A DNA stretch of 64,000 nt, from NCBI GenBank assembly GCA_910589415.1, contig OU342630.1, forward strand, positions 6,696,001 to 6,760,000, in the 5' to 3' direction. Below the pieces are notes generated by a model. That model was not told where the DNA came from, made no database searches, and worked only from the letters and a program-made list of their open reading frames with translations. The position numbers and the translations under genes were made by a program. This document shows, piece by piece, positions 215-22,544 of the stretch. The DNA is from Malachius bipustulatus (taxonomy: Eukaryota; Arthropoda; Insecta; Coleoptera; Melyridae). The first letter of the stretch is position 1. Every line of letters begins with the position of its first letter.

Positions 215-2678
215 GTGTACTAATTCAGGAACCATATGTCTTTAGGAGCCAAATCAAAGGACTGTCAGGCCTGGGCTTCAAACTTCTGGTGGGATCCAAG
301 GCAGGAGAGACACCCAGAAGCTGCATACTGGTGTCCAAGAGGCTAACGAAGGGTAAACAAAGAGTTCCGCCCATACAAGACAGCAGGACATGATGGCATT
401 TTCCCAGCATTGCTGCAGGCGGGCCTGGAAACGATTCTCCTCAGCGTGAGAAAAATATTCCGGGCTAGCCTAGCAACGGGATATGTGCCCCAGGCATGGA
501 GGAGAGCAAATGTGGTCTTCATTCCCAAACAAGGAAAAGAGGACTACACGTTAGCTAAGTCATTCAGGTCTATCAGTCTGACATCCTTCATGCTTAAAAG
601 CTTAAAATGCTAGAAAGGATAGTCGACAGATACCTGATAGAAAACACACTACGTGAGTTCCCGTTTCACAAGGGTCACCATGCTTACCTGAAGCAAAGAT
701 CCACAGAAACTGCCCTACACGCAGTGACTAGAGAAATTGAAAAAGCGTTGCATCACGGGAACTGGGCCTTGGCCATTTTCTTTGATGTGGAAGACGCTTT
801 TGACAAGGCAAGAACAAAAACCATATGCACAGAGCTGCAATCCAGGGGCACCCCCCCGGTCCTGATTAACTGGATTGCTTCAGCGATCGAAAGCAGGCAG
901 GTGTCGTCGGGTGCGGGAGAAGTTCGAGTGGGCATTGCGGTGAGTGGTGGATGCCCCCAAGGCAGCTGTCTATCACCTCACCTGTGGTGCCTGATCATGG
1001 ACGGCCTCCTAAAGCGCCTGACAGATGACAAACTGTATACACAGGCATACGCTGACGACGGGCTGGTTCTAGTAACCGGCCAATTCCTAAGCGTGGTCTG
1101 CGATCGCATGCAGAGTGCATGCAAGATAATTGAAAAATGGTGTGAAGAGGCCGGGCTGACCATTAACCTCGGAAAAACCGACATGGCCCTCTTCACAAGG
1201 AGAAGGGAAAAAAGAGGATTTAAACCACCCAGGCTGTTAGGCAAACTCTTAACTCTTAGTGGGGAGACCAAATACCTTGGAATGGTACTAGACGAAAAAC
1301 TGACCTCGAGGCCACAGATTGACAGAATAGTCACAAAAACTGTGTCATCTCTATGGCAGCTAAGAGGGACAATAGGCAAGGTGTGGGGGCTAAAACCGAA
1401 GATAATGCACTGGTTATACACGGCCATCATCAGACCAAGAATCAGCTAACGTTCGATGGTCTGGTGGAAAACAACCACAAGCAAAACCGTCACAAATAAG
1501 CTAGCCAAACTTCAACGGCTCGCCAGTTTGTTAATAACAAGTGCAATGAGAACCACCCCGTCAGCAGCCCTGAATGTCATTCTGGAGCTGCCACCGCTTC
1601 CCATTTGGATAAAAGGGGGGTCATGGCAGCCCACTTAAGAATGCGTGATTCGGGACTATGGAAAGGCGGAGGATACAAAGAACACACAGAGATAGCCAAG
1701 GTTGCCGAGATGGAGATACCAATCTCAAACCTTATAGCTACCTCAAAAACAAGGAATAACAGAGAAAACAAGAAATTTACCCTGCAAATTCCTGAAAAGG
1801 AAAAGTGGGAAAAAAGGGAGGTAGCCTTCGAACCAGGAGGATTAGTTTGTTTCACAGACGGCTCCAGGAACAAAAATGGCTACATAGGAGCGGGGCTCTA
1901 CCTGGCTGGACGGAAACTGGGAAGATCCTTTCCTCTTGGGTCTACCGCAACCGTCTTCTAGACGGAGATTTATGCTATCCTGCAAGCAGCTAGATTGGAG
2001 CAGATAACAGAAGCCAAGGAACGGACGATATACATATGCACGGATAGTCAGGCCGCCGCGAAAGCGCTGGGCACACACGGAACCAGCTACCCACTGGTCC
2101 AGGAGTGTGTCGAGGCGCTGAACAGACTTGCGGACAGAAAATCAGTGCATATCGTATGGGTTCCTGCACACTTAGGTGTACCAGGCAATGAGCTAGCAGA
2201 TCACTACGCGAAGCTCGGGACCAGGGAAGTCTTTTGTGGACCAGAGCCCGTCCTGGGTCTGACCAAAAATCTTCTCAAAGAATCTATAAAAGAATGGACT
2301 CGCAAGAGTTTAGAGAATCACTGGGAAACAGCACCAGGCTGCAGACAGGCCAGGCTGTTTCTGGCCGGTCCGATCGGAAACAGATGGACCAGCATGTCCA
2401 GAATGAACCGGAAAGAACTCAGACTACTAGTCGGGGTTCTCACCGGTCACAGCAGTCTGAACAGACACCTACAAGTGATGGGGGTCACTCGGGACCCGGT
2501 CTGCCCTAAATGCGGAATGGATGACGAGGACTCCCACCATTATGTAGGCGTATGCGAGGTATATAGCAACCTCAGGCTCAACATCTTTGGGTCTGAGGAG
2601 CTACAAGAGGAAGAAATGAAACTCCTCTCATACAACAACCTTCTGGCCTTTATTAAAAGGTCGGGGAGGTTCGAGTAG
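215..2678 (+). pseudogene. ORF2 remnant: endonuclease fragment, RT, RNase H
   Basis: An apurinic-type endonuclease fragment (QEPYVF, then PRSCI) spans about 223-350. It then jumps straight into the linker before the RT, so the endonuclease C-terminus is deleted. The RT runs from about 360 to 1600 and has the YADD catalytic box at about 1047-1058. RNase H follows, with FTDGS at about 1851, TDSQAAA at about 2040 and a WVPAHLG box at about 2158. A CPKC-H-C motif lies near 2500-2550. Breaks that can be seen: a frameshift near 600, an in-frame TAA at 1447-1449, a frameshift near 1600 and an in-frame TAG at 1959-1961. The protein cannot be made intact. Assignment to LOA rather than another RNase H-bearing clade is inferred from motif resemblance. 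Confidence 0.82.
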
Positions 2679-2765
2679 GAGTTTCACCATGGTTCGGGTA
2701 CGGCGAAAAGGGCTCTCGGTGGCCTAGTCGCTTGGGGTGCACCACCCCAACCCACCATAATACTA
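215..2765 (+). mobile_element. LOA-like non-LTR retrotransposon, 5'-truncated and broken (copy 1)
   Basis: The region holds an endonuclease remnant, reverse transcriptase (RT), RNase H and a C-terminal zinc-knuckle-like motif, all on the plus strand. This domain order is typical of LOA/I-group non-LTR elements of insects. The 3' untranslated part runs past the stop at 2678 to roughly 2765. I could not find a target-site duplication, so both ends are approximate. Related but different families occur at 14606-15996 and 52813-55745. Confidence 0.8.
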
Positions 2766-3039
2766 CTAGCCTAATTAGCCTTTATAATATTGGCTGTAAA
2801 TGATCGAAGAGAAAAATATTGAAAACTTTGTTGTGTTAATTACTAATCCCAATTTCATCCGTCTAATTAAATTTATGAACTTTTCTTCTCAGTGTTGATA
2901 TTTAAAACTCACGCTATGTTTCACCAATATAACTGTGTGACACCAAGTCATGCTTGGCGGCGCTACTAAAGTTGTCGCAGCTCGACGCAATGCTTTAGGT
3001 ATAGAGTGTTCCGGTATTCATATTTTAGCGTATTTGGTA

Positions 3040-3373
3040 TGGTGAAGACAGATACATCGATCTTTCAATGCTTATTTCCATGTCATTAGTCTGACATATC
3101 ACCACCAATCAGAGGAGTGTGCTGATCAGAAGGGAAATCAAAGCATTTAAGTATATGATTTGTCGGAAACATAGTGACTTGCAAGGCAAAAAAAAATTCG
3201 ATCTGACGACTGAAAATATACAACTTTCAATATGTCATCAGAGATTCTCCCAGAGAAATCTGCCTTTTTTTAATTTTCTTTCTGATCGGCACACTCATCC
3301 TGTAATGGTGGTGATGTGTCAGACTGATGAGATGGAAATGACCATTGAAACATCGATGTATCTGTCTTCACCA
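3040..3373. mobile_element. MITE with long terminal inverted repeats and TA duplication
   Basis: The two ends are imperfect inverted repeats of roughly 95 bp, beginning TGGTGAAGACAGATACATCG and ending with its complement. TA dinucleotides flank it at 3038-3039 and 3374-3375. The length (334 bp), lack of coding and TA target fit a non-autonomous Tc1/mariner-type element. The open frame spanning 3119-3382 is a by-product of the inverted repeats. Confidence 0.75.
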
Positions 3374-3375
3374 TA

Positions 3376-5383
3376 TCATTAGGACAAATGTGTCGTTCAG
3401 AAAGCAACAAATTCGCAATTTTTTCACTAATACCATCTCTGACAGTTCACTGAAAAAATCTTGCGAATCTCAGTAAACAAATCAGAGATGGAGCTAGTCA
3501 CAAAGCTGTGTTCCTATAGTAAGGGCCATAGTTATAATGCAGCAGTGCTCTTATGGCGCTCATAGTTGCCGCTTTTGTCGTACTTCTGGGAAGCAGACGT
3601 CCACGAGCGTACGCTCTTCATTTTGAAAATGATTTAATTCGTTGCACTTCTGTAACATTTTGTACCTCCGCAGACTGCTCTTTTAACATTGATCTCGTTC
3701 ATAAGTGAGGATTGCACAACATGGAACAGCACTAGAGTTTATAACTTCATACATTAATATTACAATATTCAGATATTAATTAATTATTATATTCTTTTGA
3801 ATCCGTCAAAGTTTATTATATTCTTCTTTTTCAAATTAATATCCATTTTATGAACAAAATTGTTTCGATTATTTAGTAAGTCAGAACATATTCGTAGGTG
3901 TAGGTATAATACATACTTAATAATAATAATTAAGTATAAGTATGACTTATTATTTATACTAAATGAATGCAAATGCTGTGACGCGGTATTTGTCATTCCT
4001 TTTACAATTTCTTGCGAGAACACATTTCCTAAAGATCTACATTTACTTACTCCACAGAATAATTAGGTAGATGCGGAATTTGAATTTTCAACTGACAGAT
4101 ACTCTGTTGTAGTGGCAATAATTAACGTTGCGTTGGTAACCAAACATTGATAATTAAGTAAATAATAAAACTGTCATAAAATAATTCACGAAGTTATATT
4201 TATTTTTGTATTATTTCTTGAATACTTGAATAACGGACAGCGATTTTGAGTATCAATATTAGTTTTCTGCACTTAAGCTAAAAACCAATACACTATTCCT
4301 TGTTTCTCGTATGTTGTTTTGTTGTTGCGGTCCAAGAATATTTCGTTTTGTTTAAAACAACAAGTTCTCAGTTCAACAGCAAATACTTAGGCTCAGGCTC
4401 CAACGAGTGTTGATGTATATTTAATTTAATATTTTGAAATATTTAATTTGAATCAGTACTTAAATTAAAATAAGACTGAAAAAGCACATATTAACAGACT
4501 CATTGGTAACATCCCCCTGAGAAGAAGAATAAAGTAAGTACTTGACCTAAGTCCCCTAATGAAAAGAAGTAATTTGCAAGTGATAGGCACTACGTGAAGA
4601 TAGAAGATGAGTATATGATTACATTGCCGTATACGGCCAAAGGAGAATCTTATACATAACTGGCAAAAATACTGAGACATCTACTCGAAGTTGTTTTTTC
4701 TAAAAGTGTTAATGAATATATAAAATGCAAAGGCAGTATACCTGCCTATCTATCAAATAATCGTTACTTCCCAAATAGGGAAGCCTTGATAAAAATAAAG
4801 TCATCAATAAAGTAGCAAGAAATAAAATTTTATCAACAAGCACTACGATTTTCATTTTACCTACCTCTTTAAATAAGGAATGTGTTCAAATAAATTTTTA
4901 TAATGTAAAAGCAATAACCACAAGCATTGCAATATGCAGTCTATACGTTATACAAACATCAAAAATTATTACTTTTTGACATTTCAACAGAACCTCAATT
5001 ATTTTTGTCTAGAAATCCTGAGAATAGAAATGTCAGTTATCTTTCGATTTTAATATTTTTATATGAACCTGTGGCACTGCTTGCATTGAACTGACAACGC
5101 TGTCAGTTTTTTGCCCATTTAAAATGCATTGCCCTATGCTACCCACACTGCATATTATCTATGGCCATTACTATAGAAAGGAAGTAGTTCCTATGAAACA
5201 AATTGATATAATAATAAATTATTATATCAATTAGAGCAATCCGATTTTCGCTTTCTGAACGACACATTTGCCTTAATTTTTCAACAATCGGATTGCTGTA
5301 ATTGATTTTATAATTTATTATGATAACAATAATTTGTTTCTTAGCTCCTTGTTTTGAAAGTATGTAACTCAATAAAATATTCG
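3376..5383. other. Gene-free stretch with one small hairpin repeat
   Basis: No credible coding frame was found. At about 5212-5312 there is an imperfect inverted repeat with arms of roughly 33 bp. Its loop carries a 21-bp string (5250-5270) whose reverse complement occurs just outside the MITE at 3385-3405. The rest is AT-rich and unrecognised. Confidence 0.5.
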
Positions 5384-15996: not shown

Positions 15997-16067
15997 AAGC
16001 GCCTTTGAAGTTAGTGCCTTAATCAGAATAAATATCAGAAACTCTGCCTCGACGAGAGATGAACCGA
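15997..16067 (+). repeat. 71-bp target-site duplication, right copy
   Basis: Second copy of 14535-14605. Its mismatch creates the stop at 16019 in the integrase frame, because the minus strand reads TAA where the left copy reads CAA. Confidence 0.9.
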
Positions 16068-18058
16068 CGAAAACTCGCGAGAAATGCGTCGGAGGTCAGA
16101 TCCGATGATAATTCTAGATGGAGGGCTTTCGTAGCACAACATACGAAAAGACAAATATAGTATTTCGACGTCTTCGCACCTCGATGTTTTCCCATTGTGA
16201 TTGTGAATGGCCCAGCATAATCTAGGGACACTTGCGAAAATGCCTTGACTTGATTGATTCTGACTCTAGGTAGATCAGCCATAACGGGGAAATACGATTG
16301 AGGTCGACATTTAAAACACTTATGGCATTTAGAAAGACAACTGTAAATCGAGCTACGTGGGGAAATTATCCAAAAGTTTTGCAAGATCAAGTTGTGTAGA
16401 GATTTAAGACCAGGATGAAAGTTTTCCTTGTGGACTTGTTCTATGATAAGAAACGTGAATTTATGCTTTTTTGGTAATAAAACGGGATGTTTAGCATCCA
16501 ATGAAATGGATGAGTGTCTTAACCTTCCACCCACCCTGAGAATACCTGCTTCGTCAATGAAAGGTGCTAATTTTCTGAAAGGTTTAGGAAGCGAACTCTT
16601 TTTCTGGCAGGAATCTACAATATCTGAGAAGCACTCTGTTTGTACCTGCCTTATAATTAGCTGTAAAGCTCGATGATTTTCGGCGTAGGTCGGAGCAGGA
16701 GTATCGGGCTTCTTCTGTCTGCGGAGGCGCGGGCAAAGACGTAAGACATAAGCTAGAATTCGCTGAATTTTCCGTAGGGATGAGAATTTGGCGAGTAAAT
16801 TCGGAATAACTCCTGAAGAGATTTCCACTGCAGCGTGCAAAGCTAAAGTTTTTTCTTCTTGCGAAGCTTCAGGGAATTTTTCCAATAGAATCGATGGCTG
16901 CTCAGGCCAGTCTGTAGGTTGCTTTTAAAGGAAATCTGGACCTTGCCACCAGAGTTTGTGTTCTATCAAAGGTCTAGGACTCAGACCTCTCGAAACACAG
17001 TCAGCAGGGTTGTCTTTTGTGGGAACATACTTCCATGACAATGGAGGAACTATTTCCTGAATATGAGCGACTCGGTTAGCTATGAACGTTTTCCAGCGGT
17101 GTGGAGAGGCTGAGAGCCAAGCTAAAGTTACTTGTGAGTCGAACCACGCATAGACAGAATCGAATGTAAATTTTTGAGAATAGGCTTTTTTGACAAAAGT
17201 AATTAAGTCCGACAGAAGATAGGCAGCACAAAGTTCTAGTCGAGGTAAGGATATAATTTTAAGAGGAGCGACTCGAGATTTTCCCGTGATCAGGATCAAT
17301 TTGATTTGCCCGCTAGACGTAATAACACGGAAGTAGATCACTGCCCCATAACCTTTGGTACTGGCGTCACAGAAACCGTGAATCTCTAAACGCGAGATCA
17401 ACTCTGAAACTATCAGCCTTGGTAGTTGAACTTTGGCTACTTCTGGAAGTTCCAGTCTGAAACGATTCCATTCCTGTACAATAATATCTGGAGGTGGGTC
17501 ATCCCAACCAGTCTTTGAACGCCAAAGCTGTTGTAACATGTGCTTTGCAAGAAAAATCATGGGAGTTAAGAAGCCTAAGGGATCGAAGATCCGTGCTATT
17601 TGAGATAGCACGCTACGTTTCGTGCAGTCCGATTCGATGGGAGTGACAGAATACGAGAAAGTATCCGAGTTAGGATTCCATTGAAGTCCAAGAACTTTTA
17701 TAAAACTAGGCAGTTCTGTATCAAAACTTAGAGGCATTTGAGAGTATTCGGAAGGGACTGCGGAGAGAATCGCGGGATGATTGCTCGCCCATTTCCGTAA
17801 CTCGAAACCGCCTTTTTTCAAGAGAGCGATTAATTCTGACTGAAGATGAAGTGCTGCCCCTACAGAATCTGCCCCGGTTACACAATCATCCATATAGACT
17901 GAATTTTGTAAAACCTCTGAAGCTAAAGGGTGATTATCCTGTTCGACAACTGCTAGTTCTTTGAGAGTTCTGAGGGCAAGATAAGGAGCGGAAGAGACTC
18001 CGAAAGTCACAGTCTTAAGTTCTATTCTTTGACTTCCTCCGTGGTAGAGAAACGCCAA
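16019..18058 (-). pseudogene. BEL/Pao RT C-terminus, RNase H and integrase N-terminus
   Basis: From 18058 the frame carries the rest of the RT with YMDD at about 17892, then Pao RNase H-type sequence (IHGFCDAST at about 17375) and the connection region to 16925. An in-frame TAA (16925-16927) interrupts it. The same phase resumes as the integrase: HKENFHPGLKSLH with KCHKCFKC (HHCC zinc finger, about 16300-16430) and DYAGPF (first catalytic Asp, about 16215). It then ends at 16019 in the duplicated target. The previous frame (20349-18022) stops at 18022 in another phase, so a frame break lies near 18025-18055 within the RT, before YMDD. Confidence 0.88.
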
Positions 18059-20349
18059 AGAAATCTCTGATATTTACGGTGTTCAGGTTTAATTAGTATT
18101 TGACAGTACATTTGTCTTATGTCGCATATAAATACAATAGGAAAAGTTCGGAATTGTAATAGAATGGTAGGCAAATCATGTTGAAGTTTGGGCCCTGAAA
18201 AGAGCGTATCGTTGAGGCTTAGGCCCTTCGATCCCCTTGCACCGGCGTTAAAAACGACTCGAATTTTGGTGGAGACGCTGTCAGGCTTTAATACACAGTG
18301 GTGAGGGAGATAAAAGGCCGATGAAGCTTTATACTCGGAACGTGGAACTTCGGAAATGTAATTCTTTTGCAAATATTCTTTAAAGAAATCTGAATAAGCG
18401 ATGTGCAGATCAGGATTTTTGTAAAGACGAGCTTCAAGGGATAGTAATCGCCGTAGGGCTTGGTTGTACGAATCTCCGAAATCAAGTTCATTTTGCCTGA
18501 AAGGAAGTGGAACCACAAATCTTCCAGAGATATCCCGAGAGACTGAGTCTTTGTATAATGTTTCACATTTAATATCATCTTGAGATAAGATCGCATTCGT
18601 TGTAGGCGGGTGTTCAATTTCCCAAAATTTTTGAAGAGTAATATCTATTTGAGGCTCCAGTACAGTGGCACAACTAAGAAGCGAGGTAGTTTGCGATGAG
18701 CATTCCGTGAGGCCCTGAAGAATCCAACCGAAAACGGTTTCTATGGCTGCCGGTTCCCCAACTTTACCAAAAATGCGTCCTGAACCCAGCATGAAAGGAA
18801 CTAATTCCGCACTGAGCAAAATATCTACTGGACCAGGAGTCTGAAATTTGTCATGAGCTAAGGGTAAGTTTTCAATGTGAGACCAATTTTGTGAATTAAG
18901 GTAGACTCTTGGCTGATCTGAACAAATTCTAGGCAAAATGATTGCTTCAAAGGTAAAGGTAGGATCTCTTTTACCACGCGGTTTAATGAAACATTGAGTA
19001 CTGCCAAGGTTAGAAGTGGAGATCAAATTATTTATCCCTTCAATCGGTATTGAAGAATGTCGACCAGGCAAACCTAAACGATTCACGCAGCATTCGGAAA
19101 TGAAATTCGCCATGCTGGCTGTGTTGAAAAGAACACGTACCTTTTGGAACCTTCCCCATACATCCCGAATTTCAACTTCTGCTGTTGATAGCAGAACCGT
19201 CGAATATTTCCTGAAAGTAGGGCTAAAAGAAGTAGAAAGAAGAGATGAGGCTGGATGATCATTTGAATTAGGTAGAGGATTTGGTAGAGGCATGCTGCTT
19301 GCCGTATTTAATTGTAGTGCCGTATTTGTCTGAAGGGAATTGGAAGCGTGTGGAGCGAACTCCCTTTTATTTAAATTCAAATGTAATAAAGTGTGATGCA
19401 AATATTGACAAATTCTACATGTTGTAGAAGATGGACACTGACGCACTGAATGTGACGAACGCAAACAATTGCCACATAAAGAGTGCTGTCTTACAAAAGC
19501 TAGTCTGTCTTGTGGAGTTTTTGCTAAAAAGATTTGACATCTATGAAGTGCATGTGAAGACGGACAAAGTAAACATTTTGAATTCTGAAGACGGTTATTT
19601 GACGTTGAGGGTTGTTGATTGTCAACCGAATTTAGAAATGCTGAAGGCATGGATCGTTGCTTATTATTCGAAAACGTCCGGTTTTCTAAGTTTTCTGAAA
19701 AACCAGAACGCTTAGTTTTGTTGACTGGTGAGCTCGGCATCATCCACTGGACAGATTCTAAGGCCTTGCACTTGTTGCTCAAAAATGTGGTAAGTATTTT
19801 GTACGTAGGCATCTCTGTGGTGCTATTTTCAATCTCAAACTCGGTGCGAGTTTTGTGATCTAACTTCTGCAATAACATATTAAAAACTAAAAAATCCCAC
19901 GACTCTGTATTGAACTTCAAGACTTTTAGAGCGGCCAGATTTTCTGAAAATATGTCCAATAAATGACGAAGATCTTTCGATGAAGATCTTTGAAGAGGTG
20001 GAGCAGTGTATATCTCGTTAAAATAAGTAGTGGCTAAAAAACGCTTGTTCTGATATCTAGTCACTAGTGCGTCATATGCAATTTTATAATTATCTTCCGT
20101 CATCGGAATGGCTTTGATCAAATTAAAAGGATCGTCTTTTAAGGACGTCATGAGGTAATGAAATTTTTGTACATTTGCTAGGCTTTTGTTTTCATGAATA
20201 AGGCTGTTGTACAAGTCGAAAAAAGCTGGCCATAGTTTTATGTTACCGTCGAATGTTGGTATGTTAATTTTTGGAAGTTTAACTCCAGAAATGGACGACC
20301 TATTAGGATCATTCACATTTCCCGTCGATACTACTGTATCCAATGACAT
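18022..20349 (-). pseudogene. BEL/Pao gag, protease and RT N-terminus
   Basis: This 775-aa frame covers most of gag (capsid-like, about residues 25-200), a nucleocapsid with CLLC-H-C, CGNC-H-C and CRIC-H-H knuckles (about 260-325), a retropepsin-like domain (about 395-560) and the start of the RT with CDIRQMY (motif A) near 750. In the protease the usual Asp-Thr/Ser-Gly triad reads FNTASMANF at about residue 410. The catalytic Asp is Asn and the Gly is Ala, which should abolish cleavage. The frame ends at 18022, in the RT, by a frame break. Polyproteins of this family are normally one ORF that is cut by the protease in the particle. Confidence 0.88.
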
Positions 20350-20359
20350 TTCATATTTT

Positions 20360-20638
20360 TTAGATTTTATAGCTTAAACATTTATCGGCAGCGGCCCTAG
20401 CTTTGTCTTGATTTGTAAATTCAAGGTTATTTTCGACTAAAGAAATAATTTCGTTATGAAGGGCTTGAAATTCATCATAAATTACGTCGACAAAACCAGC
20501 TCTAGCTAAAAAATTATGTTTGTAAAATTCATCAGCTGTTTGATTTACACTGTATTCGTAAATTTCTTTTAATCTAGTTAATGGTATCTTGCGTTTAAGC
20601 GCAAGCTTGGCAATTGTCTCCTCATTAGGATTAGGCAT
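20360..20638 (-). CDS. BEL/Pao gag N-terminal segment
   Basis: A 92-codon frame starting MPNPNEET and ending LSYKI matches the usual beginning of BEL/Pao gag (helical, with an EYSVNQTADEF stretch). The main gag-pol frame begins 10 nt later, one nucleotide out of phase. In most relatives these are continuous, so a one-base indel or sequence error is the simplest reading. Programmed +1 shifting in the A-rich overlap is possible but less likely. Confidence 0.7.
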   Translation of the reverse strand: MPNPNEETIAKLALKRKIPLTRLKEIYEYSVNQTADEFYKHNFLARAGFVDVIYDEFQALHNEIISLVENNLEFTNQDKARAAADKCLSYKI

Positions 20639-21276
20639 ATTCGTACCTGCTAAATGATTTTTGAGAGAGATAAAAATTAAAGGAATAAAATGTTATTATA
20701 ATAACTGTAATAAATAAATTAATTAGGTACCTATTATAACTTGCTTATCGTTTCGTATAGCTACCTGTTCAAGGCTTTAACAATGATAAATATTCGAGAA
20801 ATAAACACTGTAAAGTAGTAGGTATACCTAAATGTACCTAAACAAGATTATTATTATTTTAGAAATATTATTTAGTTAATAAACTGTGATAATTGACTGA
20901 GCTAGCAGACGAGCGGTCAAGCAGTTGATTTTGAATAATTTAAGATTTTACACTTGTGACGTTACAGTAACGTCGCGACGCTGGAAAGCGACGCCATAAT
21001 TTAAACAAAATATTATTCCCACGAAAAGCAAGAAGAAATCATGTAGGAATTATTAAAGTAGTGAATTATTAAAATTAAAGCAGGTAAATCGGCGACAACA
21101 AGATAAGGGAGGTTTTTTATATTGGTATCAGTGGTTGTTTACAGAAAGTGCCTCTAGGAAGGAACGGAAACAACATTTAATTCAGCGAGAAATATTAAAA
21201 TATTAAATCCAAGCAAATAAATGCGAAGCCGAGGGGAAAACAAGATAAGAAGTTGTTGTTGTTTACGTCCGGTACC

Positions 21277-21285
21277 TATATAAAG
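21277..21285 (+). promoter_or_regulatory. TATA box of the solo LTR
   Basis: TATATAAAG lies 322 bp into the LTR. A start about 25-30 nt downstream would place the hairpin array at the very 5' end of the element RNA. Confidence 0.6.
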
Positions 21286-21327
21286 GGACCGAGATGGAAG
21301 GAACGGTAGCAGATGGCAGCTGGCCTT

Positions 21328-21734
21328 CCTAGAGAACTGATCTAGGATAGCCGCTCCGCCATCTATAGCTCACCCCCTTGCCCAGAGGCCCGAGTACTGA
21401 TCGGGACTTCTCCTAGAGCGAAGAAGAAGAATTGACTCTTCCAAGCTCACACCTTAACCTACCCCAATGCGAAGCCTGGGTACTGACCAGGAGTCAAGTT
21501 GGGATATCACGAGAGAGTAGTATTGATACTTTTTCGTCACCCCTTAAAGCTTATCAGTCTCGAACGTGGACCCAGGTGAAGCGAAGAATTGATTCGCGTC
21601 CCTGGTCTAATTACTCTGAGAAAGCGTCTAATCCCCCCCGTGACTTCCTAGCGCGTCGAAGTATTGACTCGACGAGTTAGCAGGCACGTAGAAGGTCAAC
21701 CTCCGGTTGCGAACAAGAATTGACCGTTACGCAA
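21328..21734 (+). ncRNA. Array of eight hairpins with a constant GWAYTGA loop
   Basis: Eight hairpins follow each other, loops at 21334, 21394, 21429, 21480, 21520, 21586, 21661 and 21717. Loops read GAACTGA, GTACTGA, GAATTGA, GTACTGA, GTATTGA, GAATTGA, GTATTGA, GAATTGA. The closing stems differ but are complementary: CCTAGA/TCTAGG, CCCGA/TCGGG, GAAGA/TCTTC, CCTGG/CCAGG, ACGAGAGAGTA/TACTTTTTCGT (two G-U pairs), GCGAA/TTCGC, CGTCGA/TCGACG and TTGCG-AAC/GTT-CGCAA. Several have an outer second stem (GAGC/GCTC, CCCAA/TTGGG, CCAGG/CCTGG). Hairpins 3 and 7 have an extra A and C flanking the loop. The array lies in the predicted R/U5 region, so it would be transcribed. A role in packaging, dimerisation or translation of element RNA is inferred. 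I recognise no known family. Confidence 0.8.
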
Positions 21735-22544
21735 TCGAAGACGAGCCAATCAAATAATGAAATCCATGGTCATTTCAGATAACTAGAATTTTACCCCGAG
21801 CTAATCTAATTTATTAATTAAATTACTCATTTAAATAAACGGGAATTTTTCACAAATTGAGACCATAATAGATTTCATGTAAATAATATTAATCCAGAGT
21901 TTTAATCAGTTCATCAACGCGATAAAAATAATAGAAAAATCATTCCGTTCTCGTCTCATATTGCGCCACTAACATTTTATTTTCCAGTTGACTGAACTCC
22001 GCAGAAAAACTTGTCCTCCTCGACCTACTGGCATAATCTCATCGTCGAGCGGCGGCCGGGACATTGTTTTTTACCGGGTGCTGGGCCGGGAAGATATACC
22101 GGGCGTTCACCCAGCATGCTGAACAAATCGACTAATTATTTTACGTTTATCGCAGTTTAAGGAAACAATAAATTTACGTTATTTTTTTAAATGTCGTGTA
22201 TCATTTGTGTAAATCCACCCAAATATCCCGTCTGAAGGCATTGGTTAAGAAATAAATTAACCCAATAATTAAGACGTCATCTCCAAAAAAAGGAGAGACG
22301 TCACACACTATCCTGGTTGGTGCACCCCCCCCACGGGCATACGTCTATGTTGGGTGGTGGTCGGAGAATTATTGCGCACTGGATCGTTCTCCACTACAAG
22401 ACTGACTGATAAGTCGAAGACGGACTAATTGATAATAACTCAATAAAATAAAATAAAATTGAAGACTAAAGTAAAGATGGCACAAATCTTTTGAATTTTC
22501 TTTAATTTATAAAAATTGATTTAATATGAAAATGCTAGTGCCAA

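Follow-up and report, generated by a model that had tools for sequence, protein, structure and literature searches.

Tandem same-loop RNA hairpins in the predicted leader of three LTR families of Malachius bipustulatus: a possible docking site for Gag

A solo LTR of the Ty3/gypsy type, found in the 64,000-nucleotide stretch of Malachius bipustulatus DNA analysed here (the window), carries downstream of its TATA box eight tandem hairpins that differ in their stems and share one loop. Two further LTR families have arrays of their own, and we describe a compact, repeated and strongly covarying RNA element with the loop code GHANUGA, shared by three or more LTR families in a single genome. The hairpin structure itself we regard as close to certain, while the transcription of the array, its reader and its outcome are what we infer from it: the array would be a multivalent docking site whose loop is recognised by a protein, with the element's own Gag as the likeliest candidate, for the selection of genomic RNA, a reading to which we assign a probability of about 45%.

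The array and the LTR that carries it

The earlier note on this DNA had called the host sequence a solo LTR, and this is borne out by TG...CA ends with CACT at either side; the window copy of this family, family A, is an LTR without genes (Table 1). Its assignment to the Ty3/gypsy type is based on TG...CA ends and a short target duplication in the window and in family A copies, on a primer-binding site 3' of the 5' LTR and a purine tract 5' of the 3' LTR in family A, and on the long copy L036, which has gag and pol in the order protease, reverse transcriptase (RT), RNase H, integrase. The predicted RNA would start about 25-35 nt 3' of the TATA box, and since all three AATAAA poly(A)-signal candidates lie 3' of the array, the array would sit in R. 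The LTR adjoins a Pao-type retroelement on the minus strand (window 16019-20373; Peptidase_A17, DUF1759 and an integrase zinc-binding domain), and the window as a whole holds Pao, gypsy and LINE-like elements.

A DNA search of the 544-Mb genome with LTR A gave at least 41 matches, and 32 regions around such matches were fetched. Seven family A insertions have two LTRs, the pairs being identical or nearly so (1358/1358 in L036, the lowest 1366/1372 in L015), which suggests that the family was mobile recently. L036 has open frames for gag, protease and RT-RNase H-integrase followed by a small ORF (ORF3), and in five two-LTR copies (L010, L015, L017, L019, L035) the LTRs stand about 3.1 kb apart; L010, the one of these read in detail, has gag, lacks pol and retains the array. 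A further stretch, L019:8367-8617, matches the opening 250 bp of LTR A at 88% identity and has no match beyond, and appears to be the remnant of an older or related LTR.

Table 1. Features of the solo LTR (window coordinates) and of related loci
Feature	Location	Strand	Basis or remark
Solo LTR of family A	20955..22305	+	1351 bp, TGTGACGT...ACGTCACA; identical ends in copies
Target-site duplication CACT, left	20951..20954		sequence
Target-site duplication CACT, right	22306..22309		sequence
TATA box TATATAAA	21277..21284	+	sequence
Three AATAAA poly(A)-signal candidates (21834, 22167, 22251)	21834..22256	+	sequence
Hairpin 1, loop GAACTGA 21334-21340	21327..21347	+	loop kept in 38/38 rows
Hairpin 2, loop GTACTGA 21394-21400	21389..21405	+	loop kept in 38/38 rows
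Hairpin 3, loop GAATTGA 21429-21435	21423..21441	+	A.C beside loop; loop kept in 37/38 rows
Hairpin 4, loop GTACTGA 21480-21486	21475..21491	+	GHANTGA loop kept in 37/38 rows
Hairpin 5, loop GTATTGA 21520-21526	21509..21537	+	11-bp stem, three pairs alternate G.U/Watson-Crick
Hairpin 6, loop GAATTGA 21586-21592	21581..21597	+	loop kept in 38/38 rows
Hairpin 7, loop GTATTGA 21661-21667	21654..21674	+	A.C beside loop; loop kept in 37/38 rows
Hairpin 8, loop GAATTGA 21717-21723	21707..21734	+	A.C beside loop; loop kept in 38/38 rows
Gag of family A	L036:6342-7355; L010:3603-5063	minus (L036)	Pfam
ORF3, small, proline-rich, 3' of integrase	L036:2830-3252; L027:1190-1606	minus; plus	
Family B LTR	L041:5128-5841		714 bp, TGTGACG...CATCACA, then TGGCGCCCAACGTGG; on C20
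Family C solo LTR	L043:8553-9456	minus	904 bp, TGTAACG...CGTTACA, duplication AAAC

Exactly eight GWAYTGA heptamers lie between positions 21300 and 21760, at the places where the earlier note had put them, and every one is a hairpin loop; all eight form local hairpins with constrained energies of -10.3 to -16.4 kcal/mol. Elsewhere in the window the heptamer occurs 48 times (both strands), and 11 of these occurrences pass a lenient hairpin test, the best at -8.9 kcal/mol. Under a strict stem rule (at least five pairs, one mismatch tolerated beside the loop) seven of the eight count, against a maximum of three similar-loop hairpins in 3000 dinucleotide shuffles (reached in 15/3000), so that the earlier statement that chance would not give eight stands. 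The strict rule gave a maximum of five elsewhere in the real window, in AT-rich sequence at about 46.2-46.4 kb whose AT-rich loops are dissimilar. The array region folds with z = -4.2 (100 shuffles), and its first loop comes 57 nt after the TATA box of LTR A, i.e., just downstream of it, as had been proposed.

That all stems are complementary was too strongly put: all eight close, but hairpins 3, 7 and 8 have the A.C beside the loop, and hairpin 8 of the window copy has one extra mismatch, a position that is paired in 28 of 29 distinct family A rows. Hairpin 1 takes another pairing in the consensus fold of the 435-column family alignment and forms as a hairpin in the fold of the window sequence. 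When the eight units were aligned without gaps, 83% of cells were paired, compared with 45% after shuffling and 27-43% with the partner slid, and the covariation score was 1.03 vs 0.24 +/- 0.08 in shuffles (0/500 as high); the count of pairs changed on both sides was less telling (51/500 shuffles as high).

Two further families, joint covariation and conservation

A hairpin-cluster scan of the loci fetched around family A copies gave, besides the family A arrays, two clusters in sequence not matching LTR A, and these are the arrays of families B and C. Family B is represented by a single insertion with one LTR complete and the other partly seen; after the LTR and TGGCGCCCAACGTGG come gag, which encodes a CCHC knuckle, then protease and RT, and the second LTR (L027 from 1712) is interrupted by a family A insertion. 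Family C is represented by one solo LTR, at a locus that also holds a large fold-back repeat (L043:3496-4705, 1.2 kb that aligns at 97% with its own reverse complement). Between LTR A and the LTRs of B or C there is no convincing DNA similarity (best E 0.42 and 2.0), and the B and C LTRs have short stretches in common (best E 0.026). The RT proteins of A and B show 69% identity. A structured RNA leader thus persists across the three families although almost all further sequence similarity of their LTRs is gone. The first loop comes 57 nt (A), 43 nt (B) and 45 nt (C) after the TATA box, and the B and C arrays fold more stably than their shuffled versions (z -3.0 and -4.7 from 60 shuffles each). 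Identical 15-mers are shared by two pairs of B units, B5/B10 and B6/B11, which suggests that duplication adds units. LTR B has no ATG in its 714 bp (10.8 expected; 0/1000 dinucleotide shuffles reach zero), and LTRs A and C have ATGs downstream of the TATA box.

With 11 hairpins from B and 8 from C (for B3 the L027 LTR was used, since the L041 copy departs from it at that point), 27 hairpins align gap-free. Their loops have G at position 1 in 26 of 27, T16 A8 C3 at position 2, A in all 27 at position 3, T16 C6 G4 A1 at position 4, T in 26/27 at position 5, and G and A in 27/27 each at positions 6 and 7. The consensus GWAYTGA that had been given for the loop is exact for the eight loops of the window, but the three-family consensus is wider, GHANUGA. 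Twenty-five of the 27 sites comprise every GHANTGA in the three leaders (8/8, 10/10 and 7/7), and the remaining two, GCATCGA of B and ATAGTGA of C, came in through a more permissive loop pattern combined with a fold filter.

Across the 25 distinct rows and four stem pairs, 92% of cells are paired (42% in shuffles, 28-45% after sliding), cells in which both sides have changed number 52 vs 16.7 +/- 3.3 shuffled, and the covariation score is 1.20 vs 0.23 +/- 0.06 (0/500 shuffles); two further statistics, both-side-changed pairs (480/500 shuffles as high) and pair types (202/500), do not discriminate. Family B alone (9 distinct rows) scores 1.07 vs 0.29 and family C alone (8 rows) 1.13 vs 0.27, each with 0/500 shuffles as high. 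The units are paralogues, and of the two controls the slid one preserves their relatedness and the shuffled one does not; compensatory changes exceed both, in the three families jointly and in A, B and C singly. As a control on the pattern, GHANTGA gave 46 clusters in the 320,529 bases scanned, mostly copies of array A, and among 150 permuted patterns 147 gave none, two that are nearly identical to GHANTGA gave 14 and 12, probably by catching the same arrays, and one gave 1.

Conservation was followed in a family A alignment of 38 rows, made up of the window sequence, 36 full-length LTR copies and the truncated L039, which covers the leader; the LTR of L029, the L040 copy and partial matches in L012, L025 and L029 stand outside it. 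The earlier note would have been refuted had other copies kept neither the pairing nor the loops; instead, 294 of 304 hairpins retain a GHANTGA loop with a stem of at least four pairs, and 301 of 304 retain the loop, the ten misses including hairpin 8 of the window itself. This retention, the covariation among units and the independent arrays in two more LTR families together uphold the view that the structure is a selected one. The common loop polymorphism in family A is at position 2 (T, A or C in hairpin 5, T or A in hairpin 7), which differs between families too. In 37 rows (L039 also left out) the variable columns were 5/56 (9%) in loops, 12/102 (12%) in inner stems, 53/256 (21%) in the rest of the array, 145/565 (26%) in the rest of R-U5 and 44/345 (13%) in U3; loops and stems are quieter than the remaining predicted RNA, yet U3 is about equally quiet.

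The same alignment bears on the strand. In its fold, five pairs of intermediate frequency within hairpins (three in hairpin 5, one in the outer stem of hairpin 6, one in hairpin 7) are paired in all 29 distinct rows, each staying paired via G.U on the plus strand, which would be A.C on the other, and this pattern fits a sense RNA. A sixth varying pair, in the outer stem of hairpin 4, is G.U in five rows and unpaired in one; two more lie outside hairpins, and singletons break pairs. An antisense RNA could point to the fixed A.C closings of hairpins 3, 7 and 8, which would be G.U on the minus strand, and to alignment folds of about equal energy on both strands (-133.8 and -134.7), but the varying pairs speak for the plus strand, and on balance a sense RNA appears favoured over an antisense one.

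Apart from the solo LTR, the GHANTGA cluster rule detects no hairpin cluster in the window, and the scan, which covered 320,529 bases and thereby a small fraction of the 544-Mb genome, showed none outside these LTR families. In the A elements examined the arrays lie within the LTRs, with one isolated motif hairpin in the interior of L036 at a looser threshold. A second gypsy-type element (window 24456 to at least 37500, minus strand), whose RT is 48% identical to that of A, is without an array and belongs to another lineage; its LTRs are 97% alike over 566 bp, the second being cut by the query end. The array had been put forward as not a described motif, and in agreement Rfam 15 has no above-threshold match in the window; three weak matches of the array region (mir-4667, DUF3800-IX and Xist_exon1), all far below threshold, look unrelated to it. 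In targeted searches of the open-access literature, judged by title or start of abstract, we found no description of such an array in an LTR element. Searches for RT relatives gave 3 and then 77 stretches matching the pattern among viral contigs and 137 pattern matches among genome contigs, none of them a relative, and phage records gave no match.

Candidate readers of the loop

A constant centre on variable arms would be expected where an RNA loop is recognised by a protein for which the stem matters only as a stem, and tandem copies suggest several bound molecules. We picture a cis-acting RNA element of one Ty3/gypsy-type lineage, in which some 8 to 11 tandem hairpins, situated in R where the RNA begins, would each offer the heptaloop G-H-A-N-U-G-A on a stem required only as such; one protein species would read the loop, with several molecules loading side by side, the likeliest reader being the element's own Gag and the likeliest outcome that genomic RNA is chosen for particles. 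In LTR elements the 5' end of R, ahead of the primer-binding site, houses cis signals for the element's RNA. In yeast Ty3, according to a review, nt 429-4979 are dispensable in cis and the cis sequences have been delimited to the two RNA ends (PMC4974528), and this favours docking of Gag, as does the position of the array, which in all three families begins 43-57 nt past the TATA box and before the primer-binding site. Docking of Gag is likewise favoured by the covariation within and across families together with the near-invariant loop and the 294/304 intact hairpins, by retention of the array in the gag-only L010, and by its presence in A and B, whose RTs are 69% identical, and absence from the gypsy element with the 48%-identical RT.

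Several observations weigh against it. The family A Gag has a Pfam Retrotrans_gag capsid region and no CCHC knuckle match, whereas the family B Gag has a CCHC knuckle above the Pfam cut-off, so that the usual RNA-binding part of Gag is not common to both. An array in R would be present at the 3' end of the RNA as well, and U3 is about as quiet as the loops and stems. Apart from these points, the gag frame of L010 encodes 486 aa vs 337 aa in L036, the C-terminal part differing. Homologues of the A Gag are P0001 (41% identity, 341 aa), with whose start its own start aligns, and P0002 (27%), both proteins without genomic context; Pfam SAP models hit P0001 with E-values of 0.0003 and 0.003, neither reaching its curated cut-off, and 'SAP-like' would be a weak label for the start of Gag.

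A host RNA-binding protein that reads the loop, and is recruited (or soaked up) for export, stability or translation of the unspliced RNA, would predict the identical pattern, and as the reader we hold a host protein to be nearly as likely as Gag. The identical loop in families whose Gags differ in the zinc knuckle speaks for it, as does the fact that repeated identical loops are how CsrB-type RNAs catch a cellular regulator; however, the array is seen in one LTR lineage only, with no other cluster, and hence no sign of host use, in the 320,529 bases of the 544 Mb, and taken as a whole this explanation seems to us possible though the less probable one. The product of ORF3 is a rather unlikely reader; were it the one, the array and this element-coded RNA-binding protein would make up a pair of the Tat or Rev type. 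The A and B versions of ORF3 are homologous (local score 121 vs at most 59 in 300 shuffles; 38% identity) and are best conserved at the C-terminal end, an R-rich stretch, but neither the A nor the B protein has a Pfam match, which leaves it a candidate, and gag-only copies keep the array without ORF3, so that ORF3 could act in trans. Combining these candidates, an element-coded reader (Gag, without a zinc knuckle in A, or the ORF3 product) might bind the 5' GHANUGA array cooperatively, the number of occupied hairpins setting a threshold from translation to packaging; this extension we consider doubtful.

Readings without a loop-binding protein fare worse. A structured translation leader (internal entry or controlled scanning), its loops pairing with RNA such as ribosomal RNA, is improbable: the lack of ATG in LTR B would leave the B leader open for scanning, and A at loop position 4, which creates AUG, occurs in 1 of 27 only, but LTRs A and C have their ATGs downstream of the TATA box, and a loop with free positions 2 and 4 makes a poor antisense. 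Complements of the loop, moreover, form no cluster inside the element (2 in 4763, 2 in 1713 and 3 in 4159 nt), and pairing with a target there was rejected on these counts. A DNA-level role, as palindromic protein sites, an insulator or cruciforms, has a precedent in the Su(Hw) insulator of Drosophila gypsy, a protein-site array in the leader of that element, and the strand argument against it is weakened by the three A.C closings and the near-equal fold energies described above; we nevertheless judge it very unlikely and rejected it as the main reading, since a palindromic DNA site would show the opposite of variable arms around a constant centre, the pairs that vary remain intact via G.U on the plus strand, and the first loop lies at a set distance after the TATA box. 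Chance or simple tandem duplication of one hairpin is next to negligible, the shared 15-mers of two B unit pairs notwithstanding, since 3000 shuffles gave at most three same-loop hairpins, every stem pair has changes on both sides, and two other LTR families have arrays; the shuffle test and the joint covariation refute it as a sufficient explanation.

Three described motifs were also considered and rejected. YURAY, the branch-point/STAR-protein motif, would as a decoy fit family A, where T or C follows the loop, but B and C mostly have G there. An iron-responsive element would require a 6-nt CAGUGN loop with a bulged C five pairs below, not the 7-nt GHANUGA, and has no Rfam match; a CsrB-type sponge would require a CsrA homologue as reader and GGA in the loop, which GHANUGA lacks, and Rfam gave no CsrB match.

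Comparison with known systems

In the packaging signals of human parechovirus 1, several RNA sites reportedly sharing a motif bind the shell protein and act together in assembly (PMC5431903). Multiple shared-motif sites for one protein are what we propose here too; the signals of single-stranded RNA viruses are dispersed over the genome, whereas those of the LTR element are packed closely in tandem at its 5' end, with a candidate reader. CsrB and RsmZ are separate small bacterial RNAs that titrate a protein via a GGA motif, and resemble the array in having many hairpins, one repeated loop motif, variable stems and, as proposed here, several bound proteins; the array differs in lying in a retroelement leader, in its GHANUGA loop and in its putative reader. 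The iron-responsive element, likewise a 5'-leader hairpin with a fixed loop, read there by a protein, occurs in single copies with a 6-nt CAGUGN loop and a bulged C, compared with a 7-nt loop in at least eight copies here. TAR of HIV-1 is also structured RNA at the very 5' end of R, but is a single bulged hairpin, read by Tat, and not an array; a Tat-like reader here would be a candidate.

To our knowledge, how animal LTR retrotransposons mark their RNA is largely open. The array would share with the packaging regions of Ty1, Ty3 and retroviruses, read there by Gag, the nature of a cis-acting leader of an LTR element, but no tandem same-loop array is described for those in the available text of the 2016 review, which calls the RNA structure of Ty3 uncharacterised and the packaging sequences even of yeast elements not precisely defined (PMC4974528). 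The array offers a ready bait for its reader and a signature for related elements elsewhere, and, should the reader prove to be element-coded, would amount to a dedicated RNA-protein control system in an animal Ty3/gypsy lineage. Arrays of hairpins with a shared loop are already known from viral packaging signals and CsrB; what appears to be new here is the loop code and the place, the reader being putative.
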